DNA of 32,199 bases from IMG/VR virus record IMGVR_UViG_3300042477_000268, positions 1-32,199 of that record; one strand, written 5' to 3'. A program made the translations under genes and the position numbers. This stretch comes from a virus. Of this stretch, positions 3,750 through 23,917 are shown piece by piece. Positions within the stretch are counted from its first letter, which is position 1. Every line of letters starts with the position of its first letter. Under the pieces are notes generated by a model. It was not told the origin of the DNA, searched no databases, and saw only the letters and a program-made list of their open reading frames with translations.

Positions 3750-4142
3750 TTAAGTAGTTACATTTGGTGTTGGTTTAATTGCACCTAAAGCAAGTGTAAT
3801 TGTATCTCCATTTGATACGTTGCTTGCTTGAAGATCATAGAATACATTTGTATATGGTGGAAATTGTTTTGTATATGTCGAACCAATGCAAATATTTGCA
3901 ACTCCACCGTTTGCAGTAGTGGATATTCCACCCAAAATTCCATTTGCTTGACTTAAAGTAGAACCAGCGGTAACTCCAAAAGTATAACTAGCAAAAATTT
4001 TACTTGGGGCGTATCCATTTCTTATTTGTAAACTCAAGGTAGCACCAGTCAAATTATAACTGTTGCCAGCAGAGTTCGTAAAGGAAGGACTCCAGCGAAG
4101 TGTATCGCCTATGATGACATTTAAATCGTAAGGTTCTACCAT
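3750..4142 (-). CDS. Small virion protein with predicted Ig-like/BppU-type fold
   Basis: A 130-residue beta-rich protein. The segment [20 protein letters not shown], followed by [13 protein letters not shown], resembles the N-terminal Ig-like domain of baseplate upper proteins (a pattern of G-D-T, then D/N-L-T-G-A and a Q-I-R strand). That likeness is a recollection, not a search result. It is the first gene of a leftward structural operon with the 717- and 411-residue proteins and is separated from the glycosyltransferase stop by 26 nt. A degenerate late motif (CCTAAATA) sits 7 nt before the ATG. It probably links fibres to the baseplate, but this is inference. Confidence 0.65.
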
Positions 4143-6218: not shown

Positions 6219-7162
6219 CAGTTAAACTCACAATCCATCATGATCTGTACGATCAATGCCATTGTATTGATTTCTTGGTCTGATGCAAAAGCTGCTTTGT
6301 ATTGATACTCAGCAACAATTAAAATTGCTTGTGGAACTGAATTTGGTTTCAAGACTGTATATAGTTCCGTATAAAGTCGCTTGAAAAACTCTGTCGTATT
6401 CAGATCCAGATTCTGTACAACCCACTTTCTGCATGAAGTAAAGTCCTTGTTCTTCATGAATCCAATGAGTTCCTTGTACGATTCACTGCTGCCTTGAGCA
6501 AGAATGCCAACATCAATCTTTCCAGAACTTGAATACTTCTGGAGTTCATTGATGATTCTTCGCATGTCAGGAAAATGCTTCTTGACAAGATTGACCAAGA
6601 CCGCTTTTTCATATGGAACCTTTTCCGTTGTCAGAATATGTTCCACACGACCAAGCATTGCAGATGCAATTTGTGCTTTTTCTGCATTGGGAATCGTGAA
6701 ATCAATCCCAGTACATCTGGAATGCAAAGGTTCAATTACGCGATTTTTGTAATTGCAAGTCAGTATGAATCGGCAGTTCTTGTGGAATTCCTCTATGGCT
6801 CCACGCAATGCTGGCTGAATTGACTGAGGATTTGCATAATCAAACTCATCAAGAACTACTATCTTGTGATTTCCATTCAGCGATACCGTTGATGCGTATT
6901 GACGAATCTTGGTTCTCAGCGTATCAATTCCATTTTCTTCCGAGCAGTTGATGAGAATGTATTCTGAACCAACATCCTTTGCCAAGGCACGGGCAACCGT
7001 AGTCTTGCCCGTGCCTGCCTTTCCATAAAGAAGCATGTTGGGAACAGATCCCTCTTTTACCATTCCCTCAAAGATCTTTTTTAGATCTATTGGAAGAATG
7101 CAATCAGACAGCGTTTGTGGGCGGTATGATTCCACCCACAACATATCACGTATATCAGTCAC
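6218..7162 (-). CDS. 44: Clamp loader ATPase large subunit (gp44)
   Basis: AAA+ ATPase that forms the clamp loader with gp62 and uses ATP to load gp45. At 314 residues it is close to T4 gp44 (319). Visible motifs are Walker A GKAGTGKTT (about 47-55), Walker B VVLDEFD (about 102-108), and the SRC arginine-finger motif (148-150) that acts across subunits. The start is GTG 7162, with AAGGGA about 6 nt upstream at the end of the gp45 gene. The order gp45-gp44-gp62-RegA is that of T4. Confidence 0.95.
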   Translation of the reverse strand: MTDIRDMLWVESYRPQTLSDCILPIDLKKIFEGMVKEGSVPNMLLYGKAGTGKTTVARALAKDVGSEYILINCSEENGIDTLRTKIRQYASTVSLNGNHKIVVLDEFDYANPQSIQPALRGAIEEFHKNCRFILTCNYKNRVIEPLHSRCTGIDFTIPNAEKAQIASAMLGRVEHILTTEKVPYEKAVLVNLVKKHFPDMRRIINELQKYSSSGKIDVGILAQGSSESYKELIGFMKNKDFTSCRKWVVQNLDLNTTEFFKRLYTELYTVLKPNSVPQAILIVAEYQYKAAFASDQEINTMALIVQIMMDCEFN

Positions 7163-7164
7163 TT

Positions 7165-7836
7165 TTATCCCTTGTTGATTGCGATGTAATAAGTAATGTC
7201 TTGGGAACTGTGTGTGAACCTAGAAACCACGGTATCCGTGACTTCTACTTTATAGGAACCTGGAAGGAACTTAATCTCGTTGATTGAGATGTTTCCTTCA
7301 TAATCAGGACCACTATAGTTTTCCTCAACCACAATTTCAAAACTATCGGATGTGCTGTTGGAGGAATCATCGACAGTAAGGCGAATCTGACCGTCACCAG
7401 CAATGATCTTCAGATCACTGACCTGAAGGATGCTAGCAGCCTTCATCACTTCACTGAGATCCTGCTCATCAAGATTGAATGAGAAGAGAACTTCAGGCAT
7501 GTTGATGTCCTTGGTAGGAACGGTCAACAGAGATTTCTCTGCGTAATAATACTTTACGCTTGAACGCCCGTTGGAGATGTCAACATGCGTGTCATGGAAC
7601 TCAAGATCGGGATTGTTGAACATGCTGACCACACCTAGGAACTTGTTGAGATCCCAGATGGAAATTTCGGTGTCAAAGTCCTCCTGAACAGTGGCTTTGG
7701 CATAGATGTTGCTTCCTGCCGAACGAGTCTTCAGTACATTCCCAGGTTTGATGAGAATATTTGAATTGATGGAGGAAAAGTTTTTTAGAATGTTAAATGT
7801 TTCTTTGCTCAAACGCATTTTTGTCACAGTACTCAT
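7165..7836 (-). CDS. 45: DNA polymerase sliding clamp (gp45)
   Basis: Trimeric ring that tethers the polymerase to DNA and, in T4, also tracks along DNA to activate gp55-dependent late transcription. At 223 residues it is near the T4 length (228). The N-terminus MRLSKETFNILKNFSSINS matches T4 MKLSKDTTALLKNFATINS, and IWDLNKFLGVVS matches the T4 IYDLNGFLGILS strand. Six extra residues precede this block. ATG 7836 is well supported by AAAGGA 5-6 nt upstream. It is the second gene of the replication operon. Confidence 0.94.
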   Translation of the reverse strand: MSTVTKMRLSKETFNILKNFSSINSNILIKPGNVLKTRSAGSNIYAKATVQEDFDTEISIWDLNKFLGVVSMFNNPDLEFHDTHVDISNGRSSVKYYYAEKSLLTVPTKDINMPEVLFSFNLDEQDLSEVMKAASILQVSDLKIIAGDGQIRLTVDDSSNSTSDSFEIVVEENYSGPDYEGNISINEIKFLPGSYKVEVTDTVVSRFTHSSQDITYYIAINKG

Positions 7837-7853
7837 ATAGATCCTTTTGTAGA

Positions 7854-8006
7854 TTATTCTTGGTCACGACGATATATCATGTCATTCACTTGCTGCTTGC
7901 TCTCATGGCGATTTCCCCGCTTTTGTCTTTTTTCTTGTTTGCGGCTCAATCCAGTCTTCTTGTTCTTGCGGCGATTAGTGAATTTCTCAAAACTGTCTTC
8001 ATTCAT
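7854..8006 (-). CDS. Small, very basic 50-aa protein heading the clamp operon
   Basis: The frame encodes 50 residues starting MNEDSFEKFTNRRKNKKTGL and ending VNDMIYRRDQE. About a third of residues are Lys or Arg, concentrated in the middle, with an acidic N-terminus, so nucleic-acid or polymerase binding is possible. It stops 17 nt before the gp45 start and is the first gene after a strong promoter. I do not recognise it. In T4 the gene before 45 is rpbA (RNA polymerase-binding, about 129 aa), but I see no sequence likeness. AGGAG exists 15 nt upstream, too far to be ideal; the -10 box sits 6 nt before the ATG, which suggests a leaderless message. Confidence 0.75.
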   Translation of the reverse strand: MNEDSFEKFTNRRKNKKTGLSRKQEKRQKRGNRHESKQQVNDMIYRRDQE

Positions 8007-8012
8007 GGTGAT

Positions 8013-8040
8013 ATTATAACTCCTAGTTTTTGCAAATCAA
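8013..8040 (-). promoter_or_regulatory. Sigma70-like promoter for the clamp/clamp-loader operon
   Basis: On the minus strand, -35 TTGATT (8035-8040), a 16-nt spacer and a perfect -10 TATAAT (8013-8018). Six bases (ATCACC) separate the -10 from ATG 8006, which would put transcription start at or next to the start codon. Confidence 0.65.
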
Positions 8041-8054
8041 GTTTTTAATTTATT

Positions 8055-8074
8055 AAAAAATTAATGGCCATTAA
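8055..8074 (-). terminator. Probable terminator of the late structural operon
   Basis: A perfect 14-bp palindrome TTAATGGCCATTAA (8061-8074) is followed on the minus strand by six T (8055-8060). It can fold as a short 5-bp stem with a GGCC loop. The stem is AT-rich and weak, so the site could alternatively bind a dimeric protein. It lies between the structural operon and the clamp-operon promoter, where a terminator is expected. Confidence 0.45.
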
Positions 8075-8101
8075 GTAGATTCTAATACCGATACGATAAT
8101 A

Positions 8102-8173
8102 TCAAGTCCACACCTTTCCTTCGTAGGTGTATTCTTGGTTTACTGATGGAGATGGTGGAAAGTTGATGGGCAT
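8102..8173 (-). pseudogene. Truncated fibre N-terminus, 23 codons
   Basis: The frame MPINFPPSPSVNQEYTYEGK then V-W-T-stop aligns with the N-terminus of the fibre gene starting at 349 (11 of 23 positions identical: M, P, F, P, S, P, Q, Y, T, G, W). The frame ends in TGA just where relatives continue with W-N-G. It starts one base after the previous mini-ORF (TAATATG). It is most simply the remnant of a fibre gene whose stalk was lost, though a functional micro-peptide is not excluded. Confidence 0.5.
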
Positions 8174-8174
8174 A

Positions 8175-8315
8175 TTAACCTACGGATATTCTTTCGGGCA
8201 ACGCCAGTCTCAGTACAAACCACGAACTGTCTGCCTCAAATGCGGATATCGTTCCCGATGCCTGTACTGGCATATCAAGAAAGAAGTATTCGCTGTAGAA
8301 AATGATGTCATCCAT
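8175..8315 (-). CDS. Hypothetical 46-aa protein, coupled mini-ORF
   Basis: This frame encodes MDDIIFYSEYFFLDMPVQAS, then about 26 more residues ending LRLALPERISVG. It begins one base after the stop of a 14-codon ORF (TAAAATG) and its own stop is one base before the next start (TAATATG), the spacing seen elsewhere for coupled genes in this phage. It is not recognised. It may be a small virion or chaperone-like protein, or decayed sequence left with the fibre remnant downstream. There is no ribosome site of its own. Confidence 0.4.
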   Translation of the reverse strand: MDDIIFYSEYFFLDMPVQASGTISAFEADSSWFVLRLALPERISVG

Positions 8316-8316
8316 T

Positions 8317-8361
8317 TTATGCCTGTGTCAGCAATGCTCTGCACACTCCGAATCCTGTCAT
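8317..8361 (-). CDS. 14-codon mini-ORF with strong ribosome site
   Basis: MTGFGVCRALLTQA begins 17 nt after the 964-residue gene. It has a strong ribosome site (AAGGAG, 8367-8372) 5 nt upstream of ATG 8361. The good site makes translation likely, but the peptide is unrecognised and could be the start of a frameshifted gene or a leader that couples the next ORF. Confidence 0.35.
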   Translation of the reverse strand: MTGFGVCRALLTQA

Positions 8362-8378
8362 AGATGCTCCTTAATGGA

Positions 8379-11273
8379 TTACCAGAACTTCAAGGTTCTC
8401 CACATTTCCTGACCAGTATGACGCATAACGTACAGATATGTTAAACCATCAACAGTTTTTACAATTTCAAATTTATTGCTGAGGGTTGCTGTGCTATGAG
8501 CATATGGAATAGATGTTGCTGCTTCTACTTGGAACTTAGAAAGATCTAGTTGATAAATACGGTTTGTAGCGTCTTTGGTGAAGTAATACGAATCAACTCC
8601 GTCATATGCATACATGGAACCTGTAGTCAAAGTAGTTGTAATTGGTGTAACAAATGGCGTAATTTCCCAAGTTGATGTTGGAATGTCAAATATATCAAAG
8701 ATATTTGAAGCACCGCCACGGGGAGAAATCAACCATCTTCCTTTCTTATCTACATCGGAAACACCATACAGCCATTTTATATCAATACCTGTGCTTCTTG
8801 CTGGAATTTCATAAATTGCATAGAATGTATCTGTGGCATTGGAAGACAATGCAGGTACAGTAATTACTGTTGCAGTATTTGATGTTACTGAAACTTCTAC
8901 TGTTACTGTACCAGCAGAAGAAGAAGCGGTTCCAGCAATATAACGAATTCTTTTTCCTGCCAGATAGTTTGTTGGGAAATTTTTATTTGCATCAGTAACA
9001 GTTGTTGTTCCTGCACCAGTAGTTACTATTCCATACGAGTCCATAATCTCATACTTGGAAGTTGCATCTGGTGTTGCAACGTTCCAAGAAGCCACAGTTA
9101 GAGTCGTTGCAGTATTGGAAGTGATTACAACATCATTTCCTTCTCCCGTTCCTGAAACAATTCTAACACGGCAGTTTTGATATTGATTTATTCTCCAGTT
9201 TTTGGTTGTGTCAACTAGCGTAGTTGCTGTACCGGAAGTTGTCCATCCGTTTGGTGAGCGTTCTGCAACTTTATCTATAACCATAGCACCGAATGGTCGT
9301 GCTTCTTGAATCACATAACGAGATGTTCCGTTTGCCATCACTGAAATTACAGACGACAAAGTTAATGTTGTTGCAGTATTTGCGGTAATACGTCTGGAAC
9401 CTGCGTTAGTTGGAGACGTTCCCGGTGTTTGTACGAATACCACTCTTCCGACATGCTCGTTTGTATTCCAATTTTGAGAAGCATCTACAATCAAAGTCGT
9501 TGTGAGTGAGCTAGCCGCAGTTGGGCTTTGTGTTGCGCTAGCATTTGCAGCAATGCTAAATGCGGTTAGAGAGTTGGTTCCTATGACTGCAAATGTATCA
9601 TTGAAAGTTGTTTCTGTGGCACAACCAGCAATAATAACAGATTCACCATGCCTGAAATCGTGATTTACTGCTGAAACTACGTTTCCTACTTTTCCAACAG
9701 TAAGAGTTATTGTAAGACCAGAGCCAGAACCACCTGTGGTGTTTGAAGAACCGTTTGCATAACCGCTTCCAGACGCAGCAAGTTGCAAAGATGTTACTGC
9801 ACCACCAGCAGTGACTCCGGTAACATACACCTGACCGTTTGATCCTGAGGTGGAACATGTAACTAAATCTCCAACAACATAGTTTGTTCCTGCTGCATTT
9901 ACTGCAACGCTCAAAATACCGCTTGCGCTGTATGTTATGCTAGTTATTCCATATCCTTCATGTGGTGGACCGTAAGATAATGTGATACCAGAAGCAGGGG
10001 TTGCAGAAATTTGTCTAGCGACACCAGTATCTACGATTGGCGCACTTGACCACAAATCATGCTCAACCGAATATTGATACATCGCTGATGAAGCATTTCC
10101 AACAAGCCACATTTTGTCTGTATCTCCGTATATTGCATAACCCGACGTATTATCTGGCGTAATGTCCCATTTCTTTTCAACATAAAAAGTATCTGCTGAG
10201 TTTGCAGTAATTCTTCTTCGTTGTCCAATTCCTTTACCAGAAACAATTCTCAACTGATAATTTGTATAACGGTCGTATGCATAAGTTGCTCCGCTTTGAA
10301 CCAATGTTTTTGCAGCAGCAGAAGAAGCAGTCACACCGCTAATAAATACTCCACCAGCCTCACCTGTTCTGTCAATTGCAAAATCCGTAGCCAAGGAAGC
10401 AGCATGATGCATTGGACCGGAAGGAGTTTTTGTAAACCAAGAATCCAGAAGAATATCATAGTATTGAAACGCAGCTAATGGTGTGGCTGCTGCGGCTGTC
10501 ATTAACCAAATTCCACCCGTCATTATTTGGTATATTGAACTTTCATCGGGAGTAACCGTCCAAGATGAATCTACAGTCAATACACTGGATTCAATTACAA
10601 AGTTAGTTTGCGCACCAGCAGTTGTAACTGGTACTGCAAAGGGGGTTACGGCAGAAAAACCAGTATTGTTAAAAGAATCTACTGCTTGATGGTTGGTATC
10701 AGAGAATGTCAGAGTGGTTGTATCATTGTAAAGAATTCTTCTTACTTGAGACTGACCAGTGCTGAATATCAAACGACAGTTGTAACCGTCCCATTGATTA
10801 ACTCTCCATTTTTTGGTAGAGTCACCGATTTGAGTTGCGCTGGCAGTTGTTGCCAAACCATTGTCGTGAATCACTCCATCCGAGCAAGCAGTAATTGTTC
10901 TTTCTTGTCCTGCGCCAGTACCATAAAGAATTCTAATTTTACTTCCTACACAAACATTTCCCAGTCTACCAAGTCCACCAATTGTTATGGTGGTGGAAGT
11001 TGCGCTGATTGTATGTCCTCTGCTTCCAGCGTATGCAGCATATTTTCCGGCAACGGCAGTGGCAGGAGCAATATTTGGTGCAGCACATTCTTGCCATGAA
11101 TCACTATAGGTATCATATCTGAACATTGCCTGACCGACAATGTAGTACATATATCGCGCACTGGCATCAGAGGACAACAAAGTGGCGGTGCTGCTTGTTG
11201 CTGTAGGAGCAAAACGCATCCATTCAAATACTGGTTGATCAACTTGTGGTTTTAAAAGATTTGTTACTGGCAT
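8379..11273 (-). CDS. Large repetitive virion structural protein, kelch-like
   Basis: A 964-residue protein with two interleaved repeat types. Kelch-like blades of the form Y-x-Y-D...W occur near 41-60 (MYYIVGQAMFRYDTYSDSW), 255-280, 388-411, 846-872 and 888-912. Between them are beta repeats of the type RIVSGTGEGxxxxITSNTATTLTV, near 113-128, 340-357, 615-640 and 703-727. A beta-propeller with inserted beta modules is inferred, fitting a tail-tip or fibre protein that contacts the receptor. The start, ATG 11273, has AGGA about 9 nt upstream and lies 12 nt after the stop of the 206-residue gene, so the two share a transcript. No enzyme motifs are visible. Confidence 0.75.
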   Translation of the reverse strand: MPVTNLLKPQVDQPVFEWMRFAPTATSSTATLLSSDASARYMYYIVGQAMFRYDTYSDSWQECAAPNIAPATAVAGKYAAYAGSRGHTISATSTTITIGGLGRLGNVCVGSKIRILYGTGAGQERTITACSDGVIHDNGLATTASATQIGDSTKKWRVNQWDGYNCRLIFSTGQSQVRRILYNDTTTLTFSDTNHQAVDSFNNTGFSAVTPFAVPVTTAGAQTNFVIESSVLTVDSSWTVTPDESSIYQIMTGGIWLMTAAAATPLAAFQYYDILLDSWFTKTPSGPMHHAASLATDFAIDRTGEAGGVFISGVTASSAAAKTLVQSGATYAYDRYTNYQLRIVSGKGIGQRRRITANSADTFYVEKKWDITPDNTSGYAIYGDTDKMWLVGNASSAMYQYSVEHDLWSSAPIVDTGVARQISATPASGITLSYGPPHEGYGITSITYSASGILSVAVNAAGTNYVVGDLVTCSTSGSNGQVYVTGVTAGGAVTSLQLAASGSGYANGSSNTTGGSGSGLTITLTVGKVGNVVSAVNHDFRHGESVIIAGCATETTFNDTFAVIGTNSLTAFSIAANASATQSPTAASSLTTTLIVDASQNWNTNEHVGRVVFVQTPGTSPTNAGSRRITANTATTLTLSSVISVMANGTSRYVIQEARPFGAMVIDKVAERSPNGWTTSGTATTLVDTTKNWRINQYQNCRVRIVSGTGEGNDVVITSNTATTLTVASWNVATPDATSKYEIMDSYGIVTTGAGTTTVTDANKNFPTNYLAGKRIRYIAGTASSSAGTVTVEVSVTSNTATVITVPALSSNATDTFYAIYEIPARSTGIDIKWLYGVSDVDKKGRWLISPRGGASNIFDIFDIPTSTWEITPFVTPITTTLTTGSMYAYDGVDSYYFTKDATNRIYQLDLSKFQVEAATSIPYAHSTATLSNKFEIVKTVDGLTYLYVMRHTGQEMWRTLKFW

Positions 11274-11285
11274 AATATTTTCCTA

Positions 11286-11906
11286 TTAACTGAATGATAA
11301 TTTAGAACGAATTGCTTGAGCATAACAAGCTTGAGCGTCATTGGCTACACGCCATAATTGATGAAGTGGACCTTCTGAAACCAATCCTACTGCCTGTGAT
11401 GTCGATAGAGTATATGGATTTACTGGTGAGTTGTTGAATGTTGTAGCGGTTACAGCATTGTTCACATTGGCTGTAACTGATCCCGAAACAGGAACGGTAG
11501 CGTTAACTTCGGTTGGTGCTGCCAAGTTGGTTCCGATTGCTTCTATTACAACCTTTTGACGTAGACGGGAATCAACAACAGCATTGCTTTCCAAAAGTTT
11601 GTTCATGCGGCGAAGAAGTGTTGCTAGGCTTTCTTCATAACTCTCAACATCAATGTAAATTTGCAGAACATCTGTAGCACTCATGGATGTAGTGTCGTAA
11701 TCAAGAGTCAGCACATTGTTGACGAAACTTACGGCGCCCGTTGTTGGACTAGCAAAGTTGTAAATAATGGTATTGGCGGTTACATTGGTGATGAGTAAAA
11801 TATTAGCCAATGTGATTTGCTGAGACAGTCCTGAAAAGGTTACTGTCTTTGCAGTTGGATTGAAGGCATATGTGCCTGATGCGTCTTGTCCTAGTAGTTT
11901 TTTCAT
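11286..11906 (-). CDS. Virion structural protein of unknown role
   Basis: A 206-residue protein. Residues 1-95 are beta-rich. A short helical stretch with two adjacent Arg follows (EESLATLLRRMNKLLESNAV, about 92-111), resembling a trimerisation coiled coil. The C-terminal part ends with PLHQLWRVANDAQACYAQAI, near the end of the protein. I do not recognise the family. It lies between a collagen-like protein and the 964-residue protein in a late operon, so a baseplate or fibre-attachment role is likely. It has a strong ribosome site (GGAGGA, 11913-11918). Confidence 0.7.
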   Translation of the reverse strand: MKKLLGQDASGTYAFNPTAKTVTFSGLSQQITLANILLITNVTANTIIYNFASPTTGAVSFVNNVLTLDYDTTSMSATDVLQIYIDVESYEESLATLLRRMNKLLESNAVVDSRLRQKVVIEAIGTNLAAPTEVNATVPVSGSVTANVNNAVTATTFNNSPVNPYTLSTSQAVGLVSEGPLHQLWRVANDAQACYAQAIRSKLSFS

Positions 11907-11919
11907 ATTTATTCCTCCA

Positions 11920-11927
11920 TATTTATA
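11920..11927 (-). promoter_or_regulatory. T4-type late promoter (TATAAATA) upstream of the 206-aa gene
   Basis: A perfect TATAAATA on the minus strand, 13 nt before ATG 11906, with GGAGGA between them. The TAA of the upstream collagen-like gene (11923-11925) is inside the motif. Predicted initiation 5-6 nt downstream would fall at the edge of the GGAGGA, so the leader would be only about 8 nt. Confidence 0.6.
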
Positions 11928-12432
11928 GTGCTATTGACATTGCAATCACAAATCCAAGGTCTGCTTCTGGTCCTGTAGCACCTGTGTCTCCTGTGCTTCC
12001 TTTTTCTCCTGTAGCACCTTTTTCTCCTGCAGCACCTGTTGCACCAGTAGCTCCAGTGTTTCCTTGCGGTCCAGTTGCACCAGTAGTTCCTGTGTTTCCC
12101 TGTGGTCCTTGGGGACCAATAGAACCCCCTCCACCTCCTCCCCCAGAACCAAGTGATATCCACTGAAATCCATCTACATCTCCATACCAAACATAAAAAT
12201 TTCCATCACTTGAACCCCAAATTTGTCCAATCTCTGCATTTAAAGGTGGATCGACAGATTGAACCATCTCTATAGAACCAGTAAATTTCCAATTTAAAGG
12301 AGCTTGAAACGGAGTTTTTTGTGTTTCGGCTGTGCATTGGTACATCTTTCCCTGATATATCACTACATCCCCATTGGAATAAGTAATGGGTTTCCCGGAA
12401 GCGTTCTTTAATTGAAAGTTTCCTTTGAACAT
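11923..12432 (-). CDS. Short collagen-like structural protein with carbohydrate-binding-like N-terminus
   Basis: A 169-residue protein. Residues 1-95 contain a small aromatic-rich domain ([20 protein letters not shown]) typical of chitin- or carbohydrate-binding modules in phage fibres. A glycine run ([10 protein letters not shown]) then leads into Gly-X-Y triplets from about 104 to 156, and the protein ends in a short hydrophobic tail ([11 protein letters not shown]). A trimeric fibre or whisker-like role is inferred. It is the first gene of the late operon and begins 7 nt after a perfect late promoter with no ribosome site. That promoter overlaps the stop of gp46. Confidence 0.75.
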
Positions 12433-12439
12433 TCAATAA

Positions 12440-12447
12440 TATTTATA
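12440..12447 (-). promoter_or_regulatory. T4-type late promoter (TATAAATA) of the 12.4-8.1 kb structural operon
   Basis: A perfect TATAAATA on the minus strand with a 7-nt gap (TTATTGA) to ATG 12432. The TAA stop of gp46 (12443-12445) is embedded in it, so the recombination operon and the late operon abut with no spacer. Confidence 0.7.
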
Positions 12448-14164
12448 CTTGAGCCTTGATTCTTGAGAAGTTGTTCTTCTTCTCAAATTGCATTTGTTGG
12501 TCAAATTTGTCAGTCAATGAATCTGCCTTATGGCTGATGATGAATATCGAACATTTGCTTTTCATCTTGTTCAACAATTTTAAGAAAGACTCTGTTCCAG
12601 TCGAATCCAAGGAGGAGTCAAGAATTTCATCAAAGATCAGCAAATTGCAATTCAGACTGTTCTTCATCTTTGCAATCTCTCTCCAAGTCAGGAGAATGGC
12701 CAGATCGATACGCTGTTTCTCTCCCTCAGAGAAAGAGGAATATGAGAATGCATCTCTGTATCGTGACTTGATTGTTTCCTTGAACTCCTCATCGATGTTG
12801 AAGTCAACATAGAGATTAAGTTTTCCGAGGAACTTGTTGACGAGTCCATTGATGATGGGAACATAATGTTTGATGATACGACTCTTAAGCCCACCATCTT
12901 TGAGCATATCGTAGACAACATCGTAGTGAATTTGCTTGCTGATGGCGCTTTCCAAAGCCTTGGCATGTTTGTCTTTTTCTGCAATTGCCTCTTCAATCTT
13001 TATATTGATCTCAGATTCAGTTGATGCCTTCTTTATCTTAGCAATTTTTTGATTCAAAGACAAAATTTCATTGTTGAAGCCATTCTTGCGTGTGACACCC
13101 TGTGCTTGCAAAATATTCAATTCCAAGATCTTTTGATTTAAAGTTTCTACTTCAACCTTCAAATTTTCAAGTTCTTTGAGTTTTTTGTCACCAACCTGTA
13201 AGGATTTCTTACAAGAAGCCAATTTTTCTCTTTTCTCCTCCAAATGCTTTTGTCTGGCCTCTTCTGGCAAAGTTTGACCACAGCAAGTGCACTTTGGATC
13301 TGTTTCTAGAGTGTTTATTTGCCCTATAAGCGATTCTTGGAGTTCCAATGCCTTGGAGTGCATTGTGGGAACCCCGGCCATAGAAGCGATCCTAGAACTG
13401 TGTTCTTTCTTTAAATTTTCAAGTTCTGTAAGTTCAGTTACCTTATTTTGAATAAAAGTTTCCTCTGACTTTACGGATGCTTTCAGTTCTACAATTTTAT
13501 CTTCATACTCGGCCATCTCCAAATTTTTGGTGTTGTCGATCTGAGTTTTTAGCTCATTTAAAGACTTTACCTTTTCATGGGCAATCTTTACAAAACTCTC
13601 TTCTTCGGATATTTCAGTCTTCAGTTTGGAGAGTTCACCACGAACATAGACATTCATGTCAGCCAAAATGTCAAGATCCAAAAGACCTTCGATGATCTTT
13701 CGTCTTTCGTTGGGTGTCAACTGCATGAAAGGAATGAAGTTTGACTTGCCTAGAATTACGACTTGCTTAAATGCTGCGTAATCAAAGCCCAGAATCTGTT
13801 CCTCAAAGTGTTCTTGGTAATCCTTTGACTTGGCATGTTGATCAAGCATCTCACCATCTTTGTAGATTTCAAATATTTTTGGACTTAGACCTCTCTTGAC
13901 GATGTATGTTGATCCTGATCGCTTGAATTCAATCTCCACCATGCAATGGCGGTTGTTTACTGAATTCACCAACTGAGGAATGTTGATTGGACGGAATGGC
14001 TTTCCGAACAACCCAAAGCACAAGGAATCCAGAAGAGCAAACGATTTTCCGTTTCCGTTTGTCCCCGTCACCAAGGTTGTCTTGTTGTTGTTTAGTTTGA
14101 TCTCGGAGTAATTGTTTCCGAATGATCCAAAGTTTTTAAACTTTACTGATACAAATTCAATCAT
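12443..14164 (-). CDS. 46: Recombination endonuclease ATPase subunit (gp46, Rad50-like)
   Basis: SMC/Rad50-type ATPase that with gp47 resects DNA ends for recombination-dependent replication. It has 573 residues (T4: 560). Visible features are Walker A GTNGNGKS (about 34-41), two coiled-coil arms around a zinc hook (CTCC in DPKCTCCGQTLPEE, mid-protein), the ABC signature YSSFSEGEKQRIDLAILL and Walker B LLIFDEILDSSLD. The start overlaps the gp47 stop as ATGA, so the two subunits are coupled. Confidence 0.95.
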   Translation of the reverse strand: MIEFVSVKFKNFGSFGNNYSEIKLNNNKTTLVTGTNGNGKSFALLDSLCFGLFGKPFRPINIPQLVNSVNNRHCMVEIEFKRSGSTYIVKRGLSPKIFEIYKDGEMLDQHAKSKDYQEHFEEQILGFDYAAFKQVVILGKSNFIPFMQLTPNERRKIIEGLLDLDILADMNVYVRGELSKLKTEISEEESFVKIAHEKVKSLNELKTQIDNTKNLEMAEYEDKIVELKASVKSEETFIQNKVTELTELENLKKEHSSRIASMAGVPTMHSKALELQESLIGQINTLETDPKCTCCGQTLPEEARQKHLEEKREKLASCKKSLQVGDKKLKELENLKVEVETLNQKILELNILQAQGVTRKNGFNNEILSLNQKIAKIKKASTESEINIKIEEAIAEKDKHAKALESAISKQIHYDVVYDMLKDGGLKSRIIKHYVPIINGLVNKFLGKLNLYVDFNIDEEFKETIKSRYRDAFSYSSFSEGEKQRIDLAILLTWREIAKMKNSLNCNLLIFDEILDSSLDSTGTESFLKLLNKMKSKCSIFIISHKADSLTDKFDQQMQFEKKNNFSRIKAQV

Positions 14165-15207
14165 TCTTCTTCCTTGGACAATGCATTATTGTAAGCTGCA
14201 TTTATGATCTCGGCAAGCAAAGGTTTTTGAATTGACTTCTCGTTGATTGTTTCTATTTCTTCGTGCAGGAGTTGGAGTGTGTCTTTGTGAATGTCCACAG
14301 CCACCAATTCCGGGTTTGCAGAAACTTCTTCGGCAACCACCAACTCTGCAACGCCAGCCTCATAGAACTTGTCTAGGTATTTTTCAAACAATACAGGTTT
14401 TGTCTTGTTCTTCACGAAGATTTTCACATAACAATCCTTGAACTGAGAATGATCTAGTTTTTCTTTGTTGTCTTCATCATAATCAATCGTATGGAATAAC
14501 TTTCTGGTATTCTTGACAAATGTAAGAGTACGATCCTGAAAGTCGAAGACATGGAAGCCCTTTTCTTCCCAAACGTCAGAAAAGCCCATTTGGTATTGCG
14601 TTCCGAGATAATGAATATTATCACGGCTAGACTTAATGTGATAATGCCCAGTAAGAACGTACTCAAACTTATCGAAATGCTTGGGATCATAACCTTGCTC
14701 TATGAATACTCCACGAATGCTTTGAAAGCCAAAAAGTTCAAGATGACCCAACAACACTGAACATGTGTTGTCGGCAAGAAATTTTGCTGCTTGATCTTCG
14801 TTCTCCGGATTTATCCATGGTAGCAATGCGACACAACCGCAGGAAAGATGTATATTGGTCGGCTCTGAATAGACTGACCAATTCGAATAATGTCCAGCGA
14901 GTTCCTGCAAGGAGTTGATGGAATTGGTATTACGATAATAGGTGTCGTGGTTTCCACAGATGATGTGGACTTTGATGCCCATCTCAAGTAGTGGGTCAAA
15001 AAACTCTTTTTGAACTCTGTGAAGCGTTTTGAAATTGACATATTTTCTCCTGTCAAAAAGATCCCCCAGATGGAAGATAGTCTTGATGTTGTGTTCCTTC
15101 ATGTATGGAAACAACTGTTCCGTGAAGAACTCAAGGAAGTAATCAAGAACTATGCACGAATCATTCTTGAACCCAAAGTGGGTGTCGTTAAGAATTATTG
15201 ATTTCAT
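14161..15207 (-). CDS. 47: Recombination endonuclease nuclease subunit (gp47, Mre11-like)
   Basis: Metallophosphoesterase-type nuclease, partner of gp46 in DNA end processing and host-DNA degradation. The 348-residue protein (T4: 339) shows the Mre11 metal-binding motifs in order: NDTHFG (7-12), GDLFDRR (48-54), GNHD (85-88), a histidine at LLGHLELFG and the final TGHYH. The start overlaps the gp55 stop by ATGA, and the stop overlaps the gp46 start by ATGA. The order gp55-gp47-gp46 implies one transcript. Confidence 0.95.
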   Translation of the reverse strand: MKSIILNDTHFGFKNDSCIVLDYFLEFFTEQLFPYMKEHNIKTIFHLGDLFDRRKYVNFKTLHRVQKEFFDPLLEMGIKVHIICGNHDTYYRNTNSINSLQELAGHYSNWSVYSEPTNIHLSCGCVALLPWINPENEDQAAKFLADNTCSVLLGHLELFGFQSIRGVFIEQGYDPKHFDKFEYVLTGHYHIKSSRDNIHYLGTQYQMGFSDVWEEKGFHVFDFQDRTLTFVKNTRKLFHTIDYDEDNKEKLDHSQFKDCYVKIFVKNKTKPVLFEKYLDKFYEAGVAELVVAEEVSANPELVAVDIHKDTLQLLHEEIETINEKSIQKPLLAEIINAAYNNALSKEEE

Positions 15208-15773
15208 AGATCAAATGGATCTGGCTTTGGCTTTCGCTTTTTTCTCTTTGTCTTCTTCGGCTGACACATCTCGTCAAATCTTTCCATATCGGAATCAGTC
15301 AGACCAAAGAAGTCTCGTCTGCCGATGTCCATTCCTGCATAGGTTTCATTGAACCAGTTTTGGAAGTCTTTGTTGTTCTGCTGTTCGGCAAACTTGTACT
15401 GAACATACTTTTCTTTCTTTTCCTTGTTGATGATACGAACAAAAGAAAACCAGCATATTTGGGTCAGATAACCAAACGGGCTGGTTGAAAGTTTTGGATC
15501 AAAGTTGTCGATGTATGTTACGCAGTTTAACACCGCATCGGATACCATCTCGTCTCTGTATGGATAGTTTGCAAAGTTTGGTCTGTATGAAAGTCTTGTT
15601 GCTATTTTTAGGACACATTCACCAATGTAATCAGGCAACTTTGGCTTTTTTCTTCCAGAGTTGTCTGCGTCCTTGCATTTCTTTTTGTATTCAACCAAGG
15701 CATCGTAAAGTTGCTGATTATCTACATAATCAGCATCCGATGGTTTGGCTTTTTTCTTTTTAGTCTTTTTCAC
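15204..15773 (-). CDS. 55: Late-transcription sigma factor (gp55)
   Basis: Phage sigma factor that directs host RNA polymerase to TATAAATA late promoters. At 189 residues (T4: 185) it keeps T4-like blocks: YVDNQQLYDALVEYKK (T4 YVNNKELLQAIIDWKT), YRDEMVSDAV (T4 WKQEMIADGI) and NFDPKLSTSPFGYLTQICW (T4 NFDETKYKNPHAYITQACF). The N-terminus and a C-terminal stretch are very Lys/Arg-rich. The protein ends DPFDL, resembling the sliding-clamp-binding tail of T4 gp55 (DFLYE type). The start codon is GTG 15773 with no ribosome site; the -10 box ends 6 nt upstream. Confidence 0.9.
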   Translation of the reverse strand: MKKTKKKKAKPSDADYVDNQQLYDALVEYKKKCKDADNSGRKKPKLPDYIGECVLKIATRLSYRPNFANYPYRDEMVSDAVLNCVTYIDNFDPKLSTSPFGYLTQICWFSFVRIINKEKKEKYVQYKFAEQQNNKDFQNWFNETYAGMDIGRRDFFGLTDSDMERFDEMCQPKKTKRKKRKPKPDPFDL

Positions 15774-15814: not shown

Positions 15815-16501
15815 TTATTTTATAGCAAAAATCCAAGATATTGCGGCATATTTAAAATCATTTTTATAATTTTTTAACATACGATAGTCTGGCCAATCAT
15901 TTGTATTAAACAAATGTGTTACAAAATCTTTGTTTCCCCAATAACCTATATCTAAAATGGTAAATCCGGCCTGTTTAAGAATACACCCCAATCCAACTGG
16001 AGTAAATCCATTATAATAATGGTGTGGTGTGTTGTGTGGGGGGCACAATGCAGGTACATTTACATAAACAACTCCACCATCTTCCATAATATTAAAAATA
16101 TTTCTTAAAATTAAACATGGATCATATGTATGTTCTAAAGTTTGATTACACATAAAAAAATCATATTTTTCATCTAGATTTAAATCGTGTAAATCATATT
16201 TTTTATTTTTTTCATAATCTATATGAGATATATTTTTATATTTTAAAAATCTTAATTCTGGATCATTTGTTCCATTTGATATTAACGCATTATTATACAC
16301 TCTTGGATTTTTATCCATGTAATCTTTAAATTCCAACAAAGACATTACTCTACTAAAATCTTTATGATCCCAATTCCAATTAGAATCGTTATATTCCATT
16401 GGTAATTCGGAATACTTATTTTCATATATTTGGTTTAATTTTGGTGTGATATACTTTTCGTATATTTCTTGTATTAAATTTTCATTAATAATATTATTCA
16501 T
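15815..16501 (-). CDS. SAM-dependent methyltransferase (class I, divergent)
   Basis: A 228-residue protein ending the glycosylation island. The Rossmann-type pattern is partly visible: an unusual motif I (NALISNGTNDPELRFL, lacking the usual G-x-G-x-G), an acidic loop (SHIDYE), and the post-motif stretch YDFFMCNQTLEHTYDP followed by EDGGVVYVNVPA, which is characteristic of Methyltransf_11/23-type enzymes. ATG 16501 was chosen because it follows the gmd stop by 2 nt; an upstream in-frame TTG lies inside gmd. By context it may O- or N-methylate a sugar of the glycan, but the substrate is unknown. The degenerate SAM loop lowers certainty about activity. Confidence 0.7.
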   Translation of the reverse strand: MNNIINENLIQEIYEKYITPKLNQIYENKYSELPMEYNDSNWNWDHKDFSRVMSLLEFKDYMDKNPRVYNNALISNGTNDPELRFLKYKNISHIDYEKNKKYDLHDLNLDEKYDFFMCNQTLEHTYDPCLILRNIFNIMEDGGVVYVNVPALCPPHNTPHHYYNGFTPVGLGCILKQAGFTILDIGYWGNKDFVTHLFNTNDWPDYRMLKNYKNDFKYAAISWIFAIK

Positions 16502-16503
16502 TT

Positions 16504-17481
16504 TTACTTTAATTTTTTTATCCAATGGTCTACCATTTCATCCATCATACATTCAAATCCTATTGATGGAGTCCATTTAAGTTTATTTTTTGCTTTAGAT
16601 GCATCACCTTTTAGATAATGTAATTCCTCTGGTCTAGAATATTTTTGATTTGTTTTTAAATATTTTTCAAGATCTAGATCCAATTTGTTGAAAACGTAAG
16701 AAACCATTTCTTTTACGCTTCTGGTCATTCCGGTGGCCAAAACATAGTTATCTGGTTTTGATTGTTGCAGCATGAGCCACATACCAAATACATAATCTTT
16801 TGCATGACCCCAATCTCTGTGTGCTTCTAGATTTCCCAAAATCAATTCGTTGGATAATCCCAGTTTGATTTTTGCTGCCTCCAAAGCAACTTTATTTGTG
16901 ACAAAGTTTATACCTCTTCTCGGTGATTCATGGTTAAACAAAATACCAGAACAAACAAATAAGTTATATGATTCGGCGTAATTTCTGCACAAAGTGTGTG
17001 CATATAATTTTGAACAACCATATGGGCTAACTGGAATCATGGGGGTTGTTTCTCGTTGAAACCCATCCTCATCACAAGAATTCCCAAACATCTCTGATGT
17101 GGCCGCATGATATACTTTGGAATGGGGAGAAAATCTTCTAACGGCCTCAAGTACGGCCAAGGTTCCACCGCCATTAACATCCAGTGTGTATTTTGGTAGC
17201 TCAAAGGATATTTGTACGTGGGATTGTGCAGCCAAATGATATATTTCATCGGGTTGCAATTTTTGAATTATCGTTTCGATACTAAGAGGATCTGTTAAAT
17301 CAGCATAATGCAATGTAATTAAGTTATTATCATGTAGATGCTCTATTCTAGTTGTTTGTGATTCTGGAACAGAATTTCTTCTTATAGTTCCATGAACTTC
17401 ATAATTTTTTTCAATTAAAAGTTCCGCCAGATAGGATGCATCTTGTCCATTAGCCCCAATTATCAATGCTTTTTTATTCAT
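16504..17481 (-). CDS. gmd: GDP-mannose 4,6-dehydratase
   Basis: Converts GDP-D-mannose to GDP-4-keto-6-deoxy-D-mannose, the first step to GDP-L-fucose. The 325-residue short-chain dehydrogenase has an NADP-binding loop GANGQDASYLAE (9-20, usual GVTGQDGSYLAE), the IRRNS segment, the catalytic TSEMFG (128-133), Y154-x3-K158 (YGCSK), and the family motifs SPRRGINFVT and HRDWGHAKDYV. It is somewhat shorter than bacterial Gmd (about 345-370). Its partner GDP-fucose synthase is two genes upstream. It has its own promoter, with the -10 box 6 nt before the ATG and no ribosome site. Confidence 0.95.
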   Translation of the reverse strand: MNKKALIIGANGQDASYLAELLIEKNYEVHGTIRRNSVPESQTTRIEHLHDNNLITLHYADLTDPLSIETIIQKLQPDEIYHLAAQSHVQISFELPKYTLDVNGGGTLAVLEAVRRFSPHSKVYHAATSEMFGNSCDEDGFQRETTPMIPVSPYGCSKLYAHTLCRNYAESYNLFVCSGILFNHESPRRGINFVTNKVALEAAKIKLGLSNELILGNLEAHRDWGHAKDYVFGMWLMLQQSKPDNYVLATGMTRSVKEMVSYVFNKLDLDLEKYLKTNQKYSRPEELHYLKGDASKAKNKLKWTPSIGFECMMDEMVDHWIKKLK

Positions 17482-17487
17482 AATTGA

Positions 17488-17515
17488 ATTATACCATATT
17501 TAAACTATTTGACAA
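17488..17515 (-). promoter_or_regulatory. Internal sigma70-like promoter for gmd and the downstream methyltransferase
   Basis: On the minus strand, -35 TTGTCA (17510-17515, 5 of 6 consensus), a 16-nt spacer and a perfect -10 TATAAT (17488-17493), then 6 nt to ATG 17481. The -35 and spacer overlap the end of the upstream gene. The sequence is AT-rich, so chance matches are more likely, but spacing equals that of the promoters at 8013 and 15780. Confidence 0.6.
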
Positions 17516-18290
17516 TAATTTTTGTTTTTTCAAACATAATTTTGTTTTTCCAATATTGAAAAAATAATTTTTCAATATTAAATGGTTTGCTCTTAATTGA
17601 TAGGAATTCATTTTTTAAAAACTCTAAATCTTTTAATTGTGTCCATTCATCAATAAAACAGATTGGTAAATCATCATAAAAACAATTGTTGATTGTTTTT
17701 TTAACTATTGGAATCGATCCAACATAGAGTGTTTCCCAAGTTCTATGACAATCTTCTCCATTACCAGCTGCACTTATTACTAATGGGTGGTTGTATATAT
17801 TCTTCAAATAGTTATCATAAGTGTGGCTTATGTTTTTTCCATATTCTTTTGTCACATAATTTAAATTTTGACAAATTTCATATATTGGTTTTCTTTCGAA
17901 TATGTTTGTTTCGACATTTAAATTTAAATATACCAAATTGTTTTGTAACTTTGGTGATTTTATTATCTCAATAATTTTTTCTCTTTTTCTTGCTTCTTGA
18001 AACCATTGAGAATTTTCTAATCCTATTGGAATAGATTGTATTTTTGGATGTTTGTATTTTACATTCTGTCCAAACCATTTAATTAAATGAGGTGGAGCAA
18101 GATTAAAATTGGCAGAATCATTTCTTGATTGATTATTTTCTATTGCCCCATCGCTATTATGAGATATCAAAATAAATGGATGGGGTGGTGCTTCATTTAA
18201 AAAGAAATAATTTACATCATGTGTGTGTCTATAAAAAACAACATTGTTGTCTGCCAATTCAATAAATTTTTCACCTTGAATAAAATCCAT
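17505..18290 (-). CDS. Exostosin-like glycosyltransferase
   Basis: A 261-residue protein, mostly recognised by the C-terminal nucleotide-sugar-binding block at about 170-198 (PLVISAAGNGEDCHRTWETL then YVGSIPIVKK), which resembles the exostosin/GT47-type motif. I chose ATG 18290, one base after the TGA of the previous gene (TGAAATG), over an in-frame ATG at 18314 lying inside that gene. It probably adds a sugar to the island's glycan. Donor, linkage and acceptor are unknown. Confidence 0.7.
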   Translation of the reverse strand: MDFIQGEKFIELADNNVVFYRHTHDVNYFFLNEAPPHPFILISHNSDGAIENNQSRNDSANFNLAPPHLIKWFGQNVKYKHPKIQSIPIGLENSQWFQEARKREKIIEIIKSPKLQNNLVYLNLNVETNIFERKPIYEICQNLNYVTKEYGKNISHTYDNYLKNIYNHPLVISAAGNGEDCHRTWETLYVGSIPIVKKTINNCFYDDLPICFIDEWTQLKDLEFLKNEFLSIKSKPFNIEKLFFQYWKNKIMFEKTKIIVK

Positions 18291-18291
18291 T

Positions 18292-19146
18292 TCAATCTGG
18301 AACCGGAATTCCATCTTCTTTGAATAATTTTTTCATTTTATCTTCAGCCCAAAGTTTACTAACACATTTATCATATGGATGATTTGCAATTTTATCTTTT
18401 AATTCATGAACATCTTTAAAAAATATACATTCTGGGATATTAGCCTCGTCTTGGTAGAATTCTAGAGTATCATCCCTAACTTGTAAAATAGGAATACAAC
18501 TTGTTAATAGTGCTTCATAAAATCTTGTTGGTATTCCATTGCTATATGTGCTGATAGGACACAATGAAAAACGATATTTACAATAAATATTTAAATATTC
18601 TTGCCAAGAATTATTTAAATTTGTCATAATATCTGTTTGAATGTAGTGATTAATATTGTCTAATACAACTTTTCTCTCGGAGTATACTTGATGTTCATAT
18701 TGGCCTATAAAAAGACATTTATTTTCTTTTTCATTGCATTTAAACATTTCTCCGTAATGCTTTGATATAGGATAGCCAATAATTTTTTTATTTAAAATTT
18801 TAGCATCATTTACATCCCAAACATATTGATGCCAAATTTTAAGCTTTTCTAGAGTTTTTTGTATTTCTAGATTATGTTGGTAATGTGTATTAAATATTTT
18901 TTCTCCACCAATAACAACAACAAATATATTATTAGAATTACAAACATCAATAAATCTTTGATTCCACCATATATCTCTGTGTGGGATAAAATGATCATTA
19001 CCTATAAACAATAAATTTACATCTTCTAAATCATTTACATGATTTATGCATTTAACATTACCATAAAGATTTTTAATAGCATAATAATAATTTTCTATTA
19101 ATAGACTTCTTTGATATGATCTATCACAAATAATTCCAACATTCAT
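18292..19146 (-). CDS. Glycosyltransferase-like protein (exostosin/GT-B type)
   Basis: A 284-residue protein. A Rossmann-like N-terminus (MNVGIICDRSYQRSLLIENY) and a C-terminal donor-site block (GIPTRFYEALLTSCIPILQV, about 204-223) point to a GT-B enzyme related to exostosin-type transferases. The preceding gene's block YVGSIPIV occupies the same place, suggesting the two are distant paralogues. ATG 19146 is 7 nt after the GDP-fucose synthase stop; the upstream in-frame ATG at 19185 is inside that gene. Substrate unknown. Confidence 0.65.
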   Translation of the reverse strand: MNVGIICDRSYQRSLLIENYYYAIKNLYGNVKCINHVNDLEDVNLLFIGNDHFIPHRDIWWNQRFIDVCNSNNIFVVVIGGEKIFNTHYQHNLEIQKTLEKLKIWHQYVWDVNDAKILNKKIIGYPISKHYGEMFKCNEKENKCLFIGQYEHQVYSERKVVLDNINHYIQTDIMTNLNNSWQEYLNIYCKYRFSLCPISTYSNGIPTRFYEALLTSCIPILQVRDDTLEFYQDEANIPECIFFKDVHELKDKIANHPYDKCVSKLWAEDKMKKLFKEDGIPVPD

Positions 19147-19153
19147 AATAATC

Positions 19154-20098
19154 TCAATTTCTTTGATATGTTTTTCTATTTTCAAGATACCATTTAATTG
19201 TGGTGTTCAACCCATCTTCCAAAGATATTTTGGATTTCCAACCAAGTTTATTAATTTTTTCATAGCAAAGCTTTCTCAATGGTGTTCCATTTGGCTTTGT
19301 TGTGTCCCACAAAACATCCCCCTCAAAGTTTAATTTAGCTTTAATAGAAAGAACTAAATCTTTGATTGTTATTTCGTTGTCGGATCCAACATTTATTGTT
19401 TCTGGATCATTGTGTGTATTCATAAAAAATACACACGCATCAGCCAAATCATCACAATATAAAAATTCTCTTGTTGGGCTTCCATCACCATAGCATGTAA
19501 TAGATTTTTCTCCATTGTCTTTGGCATTTAAAAATTTTCTAATAATTGCTGCTATGACGTGACATTGATCCAAATTAAAATTATCATTTATGCCATATAA
19601 ATTTGTAGGCATCAAAGATATGGTGTTAAATCCATATTGCTTTGTGTAATACTGACACATTTTTAAACCTGCAATTTTTGCAATCGCATAAGCCTCGTTT
19701 GTTGGTTCTAAAGTATCAGTTAAAAGATATTCTTCTTTTATTGGTTGTGGTGTTATTTTTGGATAGATGCAAGCAGAACCCAAAAACAATAACTTTTTTA
19801 CTCCATTGATATATGAATTATGTATTACGTTATTTTGAATTTGTACATTGTCGTATATAAATTCTGCTGGAGCTCGGTTGTTGTAACTAATTCCACCAAC
19901 CTTTGCAGCACTCAAAAATACATATTCGGGTTTCTCTTCTTTAAAAAATGTTTCAACATCTCTTTGATTTCTTAAATCTAACTGTTGTTTAGTTTTTAAA
20001 AGAAGATTATTATAACCATCTTGTTGTAATTTTCTAGTAATCGCTGAACCTATCATACCTTTATGGCCAGCAACAAATATTTTTGCACTTTTATCCAT
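19154..20098 (-). CDS. fcl: GDP-L-fucose synthase
   Basis: Epimerises and reduces GDP-4-keto-6-deoxymannose to GDP-L-fucose with NADPH, completing the pathway begun by Gmd. The 314-residue protein shows the NADP loop AGHKGMIGSA (10-19), AAKVGGI, the active-site GSACIYP with Ser108 and Cys110, Tyr137-x3-Lys141 (YAIAKIAG), His180 (QCHVIAA) and the MPTNLYG and GSPTREFLYCDDLADA motifs. These correspond to the catalytic Ser, Cys, Tyr, Lys and His of the E. coli enzyme, so activity is expected. AAGGAAA lies just upstream of ATG 20098. Confidence 0.95.
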   Translation of the reverse strand: MDKSAKIFVAGHKGMIGSAITRKLQQDGYNNLLLKTKQQLDLRNQRDVETFFKEEKPEYVFLSAAKVGGISYNNRAPAEFIYDNVQIQNNVIHNSYINGVKKLLFLGSACIYPKITPQPIKEEYLLTDTLEPTNEAYAIAKIAGLKMCQYYTKQYGFNTISLMPTNLYGINDNFNLDQCHVIAAIIRKFLNAKDNGEKSITCYGDGSPTREFLYCDDLADACVFFMNTHNDPETINVGSDNEITIKDLVLSIKAKLNFEGDVLWDTTKPNGTPLRKLCYEKINKLGWKSKISLEDGLNTTIKWYLENRKTYQRN

Positions 20099-20107
20099 TT
20101 GATTTCC

Positions 20108-20878
20108 TTATAAAGACCTTCTATATGCCTGAGAACTGACGATATGATATTGATTATTTTTCAAAAACATCAACTCATCAACTGATGGAACTCTGTCAAT
20201 ATCAACAATTTTTATTTCTTTTTCACAACAAATATTGTTGTGCATTTTAAACACCCAATTTCCATATAAATCATATTCAGAAAAATTGGAATGTTCATTC
20301 CAATCTAAAGTATCTATAATAGATATATCCCATTTTTTAGAATTTATTGATTCAATATGTTGTTTTAATTCCTTTACGTATTTTTTATTTAAAATCATAT
20401 GATGATTTATAAAGGAAAACCCCGAATTGGTTTCTTCTTTCATTAACCTTGAATACTGATTCCTGTAGGGAGTATGATATTCTCCTGTATATGCTTTTGC
20501 GTATGGAAATTCATCTTTTTGCGTGTTTTCATATGGATTATTAACAAAGATAATATCAGCATCACATATTAAATAAGTTTCATTCAATGATGTAATGTAA
20601 TCGTTTGCGCCCAATTTTAAAAATTGTTGATATAACCAACCAGCTCTATGTGATACATTTTCATTTTTTTCTTTCCATTGCTTTTTTATATCTTCTAATT
20701 TTATAATACCGTTAATATCATTTTCATGAATAAATGTGGTATTTTCAATATTAGGGTTTTCAGATCCAACTATATAAATGTTTTCAACATTTAAAATATA
20801 TTTTAAAGACTCACAACCATACTTTAAAATTGGAGCATCTTTAATGTGAAACGGTATTACTGCATCTGTGATATTCAT
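20108..20878 (-). CDS. Glycosyltransferase, DUF6492-like
   Basis: A 256-residue protein with a GT-A-like core: AGWLYQQFLKLG (79-90) followed by the DxD motif in YLICDADIIF (DAD at 106-108) and a later block SGFSFINHHMILNKKYVKEL. This combination recalls the DUF6492 family of putative glycosyltransferases. It starts 4 nt after the FkbM gene stop. The donor sugar is not predictable. Recognition is from memory of the motif pattern. Confidence 0.7.
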   Translation of the reverse strand: MNITDAVIPFHIKDAPILKYGCESLKYILNVENIYIVGSENPNIENTTFIHENDINGIIKLEDIKKQWKEKNENVSHRAGWLYQQFLKLGANDYITSLNETYLICDADIIFVNNPYENTQKDEFPYAKAYTGEYHTPYRNQYSRLMKEETNSGFSFINHHMILNKKYVKELKQHIESINSKKWDISIIDTLDWNEHSNFSEYDLYGNWVFKMHNNICCEKEIKIVDIDRVPSVDELMFLKNNQYHIVSSQAYRRSL

Positions 20879-20882
20879 CTTA

Positions 20883-21515
20883 TTATATCCTTGTATTTAC
20901 AAATAAAGCATCACCAAATCCACCATAAGATTCTGTTTCAACATGCTTGAATCCGTTATTTTCAAGATATTGTTTATATTCTTCAAACAATATATCACTG
21001 TAATAAAAAGAGTGAAATGATACTTCGCTTATAATATTTTTTACAAATTTTATATTTTCAAATAAACCATCTAAAGCAATTTTTTCATATCCCTGTAAAT
21101 CTAAACACAACAAATCTATTTCGGATATTTTGTTCTCATCCATAAAAGACTTTAGTGTTTTGCATGGGACAGTTATTTTTTTCTGAATGTAATTAACTTG
21201 ATCTCTGTGAAAAAGAGCAGACGAGGCTCCAATATTTTTGTCTGTGCTTTTTTCCATATCCGTTGCATAAAAATCAATAGAGCCATTATGGTTACTGACT
21301 GCATATTCCATTAAAACAATATCCTTTTGATCTTTTATGTTTTTTTTACAAACTTGAATAGATTCTGGATTACATTCAAATGAATATATTTTATTTGGTT
21401 TATAGTAATTCAACATCTGAATTGCATCCAAACAATCTCTGGATCCACATTCTACAATAATAGAAAGCGGTGTTTTAATATGTTGTGTAAATTTTTGATT
21501 TGTGTAACTAGACAT
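20883..21515 (-). CDS. FkbM-family methyltransferase
   Basis: A 210-residue SAM-dependent methyltransferase. Motif I is VECGSRD (21-27), followed by the acidic SFECNP (45-50), YAVSNHNGSIDFY, and the family hallmark IDLLCLDLQGYEKIALDG (133-150, equivalent to the usual D-x-L-K-x-D-V-E-G-x-E). FkbM enzymes methylate hydroxyls of small molecules and sugars, so a methylated sugar in the glycan is inferred. Its ATG overlaps the previous stop as TAATG. Confidence 0.85.
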   Translation of the reverse strand: MSSYTNQKFTQHIKTPLSIIVECGSRDCLDAIQMLNYYKPNKIYSFECNPESIQVCKKNIKDQKDIVLMEYAVSNHNGSIDFYATDMEKSTDKNIGASSALFHRDQVNYIQKKITVPCKTLKSFMDENKISEIDLLCLDLQGYEKIALDGLFENIKFVKNIISEVSFHSFYYSDILFEEYKQYLENNGFKHVETESYGGFGDALFVNTRI

Positions 21516-23915: not shown

Positions 23916-23917
23916 AT

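Follow-up and report, generated by a model that had tools for sequence, protein, structure and literature searches.

A tiny open reading frame (ORF) in a fibre locus may be a real gene or a scar, and comparison with relatives is needed to decide. This question is raised by three ORFs on the minus strand of a viral DNA stretch of 32,199 nucleotides (IMG/VR record IMGVR_UViG_3300042477_000268, positions 1 to 32,199; hereafter the window), which follow a gene of 964 residues and comprise 14 codons (8317-8361), 46 codons (8175-8315) and 23 codons (8102-8173). As described in the original prediction for this locus, the ORFs are separated by one base each (TAA-a-ATG and TAA-t-ATG), and the first ATG is closely preceded by a strong ribosome site, AAGGAG. 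In a shuffle test of 8040-8380, designed after the fact, a three-ORF chain with one-base gaps occurred in none of 5000 dinucleotide shuffles, the first ORF pair alone in 60 and one ORF of at least 46 codons in 890. The rarity of the chain, the ribosome site and the conservation of the 46-codon gene described below would suit three genuine micro-proteins made from a coupled translation chain. The real gene is, however, told from the remnants by conservation and not by length. In comparison with relatives, the three ORFs are very probably the downstream edge of a fibre cassette in the gp46/gp45 interval that was eroded by successive deletions, with one small gene being kept.

The window belongs to a T4-like phage, Pfam identifying a gp45 clamp, a gp44-type loader, a gp23 capsid protein and UvsW. 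Its clamp is at most 45% identical to those of the best-ranked annotated phages, the first of which is Pelagibacter phage HTVC008M, and the region 7100-9500 has no DNA-level match in annotated phages. The gp46 side of the interval is marked by a gene at 12443-14164, which we take to be gp46 and for which Pfam gives SMC_N only. A relative of the clamp is present in 17 IMG/VR loci, and in 14 of them (the exceptions being L013, L014 and L016) the site is empty, and a 94-residue gene or its homologue runs directly up to the early promoter that serves a 50-residue gene and the clamp. Homology between the window and the empty-site relatives ends at 12158 and picks up again at 8044, two points that are 2 bases apart in L002, and we therefore conclude that about 4.1 kb of fibre genes was inserted. 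This fibre cassette of ~4,113 bases occupies 8045-12157 on the minus strand, with edges good to a few bases. Its upstream edge is a chimeric gene (11923-12432, minus strand) that joins, in one frame, the N-terminus of the empty-site 94-residue gene and a collagen-like fibre tail; the 94-residue protein part is carbohydrate-binding-like, with CBM_5_12 just under the cut-off. The downstream edge meets the conserved sigma-70-like early promoter TTGATT-16-TATAAT (8013-8040, minus strand) of the 50-residue gene, which has no Pfam or PHROGs match above cut-off, and the sliding clamp. In L013, L014 and L016 this promoter directly adjoins a 106-107-residue gene of the type found in fibre cassettes, which means that the interval was filled on more than one occasion.

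Invertible cassettes of the Mu/P1 type carry inverted repeats that bracket alternative fibre ends. The inverted repeats in 7800-12500 are short and imperfect only, with none at either cassette edge, which speaks against an invertible fibre cassette. No Rfam element reached the gathering score in 7800-8500. The motif ACTTG(A/G)T is found at both cassette edges (~12155 and ~8042) and at the junction J2 described below (~8102), a recurrence that may reflect chance or a preferred break site.

The nearest intact gene order, seen in L066 and L067, consists of a gene of ~810 residues, the 46-codon gene, a fibre gene, a 106-residue gene and a 100-residue gene. The comparison demonstrates that this order is preserved in the window, which retains end fragments of genes that are intact in these relatives: of the first gene the last codons, then the whole second gene, 22 codons of the third and 12 codons of the fourth, followed by no more than the beginning of another fibre gene. 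Relative to L066 the window lacks 1,263 bases of the fibre gene and the following gene, and relative to L047 ~2.7 kb. The original prediction had allowed for one sequencing error at 8102-8110 or 8317 which, if corrected, would restore one intact frame; with more than 1.2 kb gone in comparison with L066, such an error is excluded.

The 14-codon ORF, MTGFGVCRALLTQA (8317-8361, minus strand), arises at a junction termed J1, where a strong Shine-Dalgarno sequence and an ATG are placed in frame with the last codons of the lost ~810-residue gene. It ends in RALLTQA and a stop codon, the in-frame tail of that gene. In 14 of 15 IMG/VR contigs the 46-codon gene is preceded, at a distance of one base, by a gene that ends in GVTVRALLTQA and has ~810 residues where it is complete. 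L133 carries TGFGVSGVTVRALLTQA, so the resemblance to the tail of the ~810-residue gene extends to the opening codons of the ORF. Outside the window the 14-codon ORF is present only in L047, an independent contig in which J1 recurs and where the gene has likewise shrunk to 14 codons with its frame kept; the other contigs have the tail end of the larger gene there. This distribution argues against a micro-protein, and the ORF is likely a mere leader that delivers ribosomes to the next ORF.

The upstream neighbour, a 964-residue structural or fibre gene of the cassette (8379-11273, minus strand), has relatives in 46 loci, of which L047 alone stays collinear with the window past the stop codon. 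For the sequence before J1 (~8340-8374, including the ribosome site), no source was found among the contigs searched. As the 964-residue gene directly precedes a full ~810-residue gene in no contig examined, J1 may be an exchange instead of a deletion. Searches, one of them lacking a positive control, revealed no gene related to the ~810-residue gene at any other place in the window or in the 38.5-kb L047 contig, both of which are fragments.

The 46-codon ORF (8175-8315, minus strand) is of a different nature. Two scans, the first returning 14 contigs and the second the same 14 and L133, located it in 15 contigs, in which it encodes 46 residues (45 in L133) with identities of 63-100%. Comparison of the window with L069, L070, L076 and L077 demonstrates selection, the synonymous difference pS being 0.69-0.88 and the non-synonymous difference pN 0.14-0.23. 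Judged from these sequence comparisons, the ORF is a real, conserved gene of constant length under purifying selection, a small component of the fibre cassette. Against L067, the count gives a single synonymous step over the first 32 codons but seven synonymous and four non-synonymous steps over the last 14, and this bunching points to a recombination breakpoint within the gene. Nothing in Pfam or PHROGs scored above cut-off for the 46-residue ORF (one sub-threshold match was to Gmad2, E 0.17), and the protein has no match in annotated phages or genome contigs. An AlphaFold model contains two strands at a mean pLDDT of 63.8, which is too weak for a fold search. Such a gene of 46 residues would probably be dropped by automatic annotation.

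The 23-codon ORF (8102-8173, minus strand) reads MPINFPPSPSVNQEYTYEGKVWT and consists of an orphan tail-fibre gene start of 22 codons (8108-8173) and a junction. The 22-codon N-terminus is that of fibre genes with the start MPxxFP...W-x-W-(N/D)-G and shares 95% residue identity with L047 and L041, but the second Trp, the N/D-G and the fibre body are absent, the DNA beyond being the end of another gene. The start is cut at the first Trp and a stop follows after one further codon, in accordance with the original observation that the ORF stops where relatives have W-N-G, the relatives carrying W-x-W-D/N-G. An intact gene was sought in relatives, as suggested with the original prediction, and was found in L047. 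This contig runs collinearly with the window between 9010 and 8108 (96% identity), and behind its 14- and 46-codon ORFs it has an intact collagen fibre gene of 533 residues with the same 22 codons except for one residue. Window positions 8109-8067 correspond to the 3' end of the 106-residue gene in eight loci (L019, L022, L035, L038, L040, L041, L046 and L051), and its last 12 codons and stop (GLDIIVSVLEST, 8071-8109, minus strand) are joined out of frame at J2, with the common GG at 8108-8109. Since the match to L047 ends at 8108 and is followed by the end of the 106-residue gene in another frame, the 23-codon ORF is a junction.

A scan for the 22-codon start yielded 18 loci, 17 of which were counted after omission of L153, which has no initial Met. 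In 15 of the 17 contigs the start goes on to 311-533 residues, in the other two the contig ends before the frame does, and in none is it an orphan. The 23-codon ORF thus exists as a stand-alone frame in no other contig; it has no Pfam or PHROGs match above cut-off and is probably without function as a protein. Together with the distribution of the 14-codon ORF, its absence elsewhere as a stand-alone frame makes a chain of three micro-proteins very unlikely. Accordingly, the two possibilities offered by the original prediction divide between the ORFs: a decayed fibre cassette describes the 14- and 23-codon ORFs, which are ends of genes intact in relatives, whereas a genuine small protein applies to the 46-codon ORF only.

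The original prediction had also compared the 23-codon ORF with the fibre start at position 349 of the window. The likeness was confirmed, with 11 of 22 residues being identical instead of the 11 of 23 given previously. At the DNA level 39 of 66 bases are alike and the longest exact run is 7, so the fragment is a weak candidate for a donor to the fibre at 349 in the same genome. The proposal of a donor for recombination at fibre tips also fits poorly, as the fragment comprises the conserved N-terminus and lacks any tip. It has 54 identical bases in common with fibres of other phages, and judging from sequence likeness an exchange with these fibres during co-infection would be possible.

Two pieces nearer to the promoter had been overlooked by the earlier description, namely the out-of-frame 3' gene fragment at 8071-8109 and an 8-codon orphan fibre start at 8045-8071 (minus strand), ATGGCCATTAATTT. 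The latter reads MAINFLIN and breaks off within five codons of the MAINF start, A/T-rich filler with a stop extending to the clamp promoter. The sequence TAATGGCCATTAATTT after the stop of the 106-residue gene is a 16-base match to an intact fibre start in L067. At J3 the end of the 106-residue gene is joined to this L067-type fibre start at TAATGGC, a sequence also common to the start of the 100-residue gene, the normal successor of the 106-residue gene; J4 is the second junction of this piece.

J2 and J4 were found in no independent genome. The J2 pattern gave 0 matches in viral contigs and 0 in genome contigs, where near-identical records were perhaps omitted, and the J4 pattern gave 0 matches in viral contigs, near-identical records again perhaps being omitted. 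Both junctions therefore rest on one assembly, and as fibre loci are mosaic across strains, an assembly chimera has to be considered, in which short repeats led to the merging of reads from separate fibre loci while the gene of the phage itself is intact here. Assemblers usually need overlaps longer than 2 or 7 bases, but the shared sequence amounts to 2 bases at J2 and 7 at J3. Moreover, the recurrence of J1 in L047 is independent of this assembly, the fragments follow the intact cassette gene order and end exactly at the conserved promoter, and similar orphan starts are present in five other contigs. We thus regard a chimera as very unlikely.

These orphan starts were identified in a census over all loci, in which identical contexts were counted once and open starts less than 180 bases from a contig end were excluded. 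Besides 57 distinct long or open fibre starts there were 14 short ones; six of these lie within other long ORFs and one (L077) is on the opposite strand, and these were taken as chance. The remaining seven are on the fibre strand outside other genes, the window contributing two and L038, L047, L067, L070 and L076 one each. As the motif was picked after the first cases had been seen, the counts are descriptive and do not constitute a test. The orphan in L038 is closely followed by a promoter-like TTGACT..TATAAT and a dUTPase gene. The one in L076 is followed by a similar promoter and by a gene with a start that looks like the orphan by eye, and the one in L070 lies upstream of a 76-residue fibre-like gene and ribonucleotide reductase, while in L067 an intact fibre gene comes next. 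In L047 a fibre start at 3979-4065 has a point stop at the position of the relatives' second Trp, with the rest still readable, and is followed by a reverse-oriented glycosyltransferase-like gene.

A reading compatible with erosion is that orphan starts are kept as homology anchors for the uptake of new fibre bodies in co-infection. Identical starts (22/22 residues) precede unrelated bodies when L047 is compared with L041 (20% body identity) and L066 (17%), the bodies of other pairs of start carriers being related (52-72%); 54 bases are identical to other phages, and orphans recur, several of them at array edges. Yet a plain deletion leaves an orphan too, and the match to the other fibre start within the window is weak, so that we consider retention as anchors quite unlikely. 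Also unlikely, if slightly less so, is a broader version in which edges keep short N-terminal anchors as landing sites for new fibre bodies, fibre loss is tolerated and the 46-codon gene is a small factor of the cassette that rides with any fibre present; fibre-shedding deletions would then be tolerated because the anchor allows regain.

For the preferred reading, erosion of the cassette edge, we envisage that fibre genes come and go as modules at short common sequences, the joins being deletions or illegitimate recombinations at sequences such as GG and TAATGGC. Fibre loss would leave the start because the cut falls in the body, and would halt at the next essential promoter; on the right, erosion may be bounded by the need to preserve the early promoter from which the sliding-clamp operon is expressed. 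The 46-codon gene may have survived because it is useful or because it was spared by the joins. The in-frame J1 would keep it translated by termination and restart at TAAaATG, and the same termination and restart presumably operates behind the ~810-residue gene in relatives. The 54 bases identical to other fibres count against erosion in so far as no decay by point mutation is visible.

Recombination at the fibre locus of T-even phages was reportedly described by Tetart, Desplats and Krisch in 1998. The present locus is similar in that host-recognition segments are swapped between short conserved segments; here, however, it is a 22-codon N-terminus, present on many different fibre genes, that is conserved, and a fragment stays after the body is lost. 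In Ackermannviridae, a laboratory study describes deletion of tsp3 and truncation of tsp4 upon gain of a tail-spike gene, with conserved 5' ends serving as recombination sites as they may here (PMC11414711). In contrast to the recombinants described there, the window represents a natural, uncultured T4-like phage with the cassette between replication genes and several successive joins. The host recognition cluster described for pelagimyophages, which are T4-like, is a hypervariable island of fibres and glycosyltransferases, and collagen repeats are reported among their structural proteins (PMC7029224). That island is placed between vrlC and gp14 (PMC7029224), whereas the present cassette lies between gp46 and gp45. 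We found no report of this arrangement in searches of open-licence papers. The locus provides a base-resolved view of the shedding of a host-recognition cassette, the site being empty in close relatives and filled in one genome, with four joins at the edge.

Further observations concern neighbouring genes. A 651-residue protein with numerous leucine-rich repeats, presumably of the BspA-like type, is encoded next to gp45 in the fibre cassette of L016 (2314-4269). The gp46-like gene is present as two ORFs in L010 (2785-4507) and L011 (2775-4496), either by real frameshifts or by assembly errors. Finally, between a 189-residue gene (15204-15773) and UvsW the window contains a long run of genes (15815-25124) that we assume to be sugar-nucleotide and glycosyltransferase genes, and L001, L002, L005 and L008 carry different genes just upstream of their 189-residue gene.
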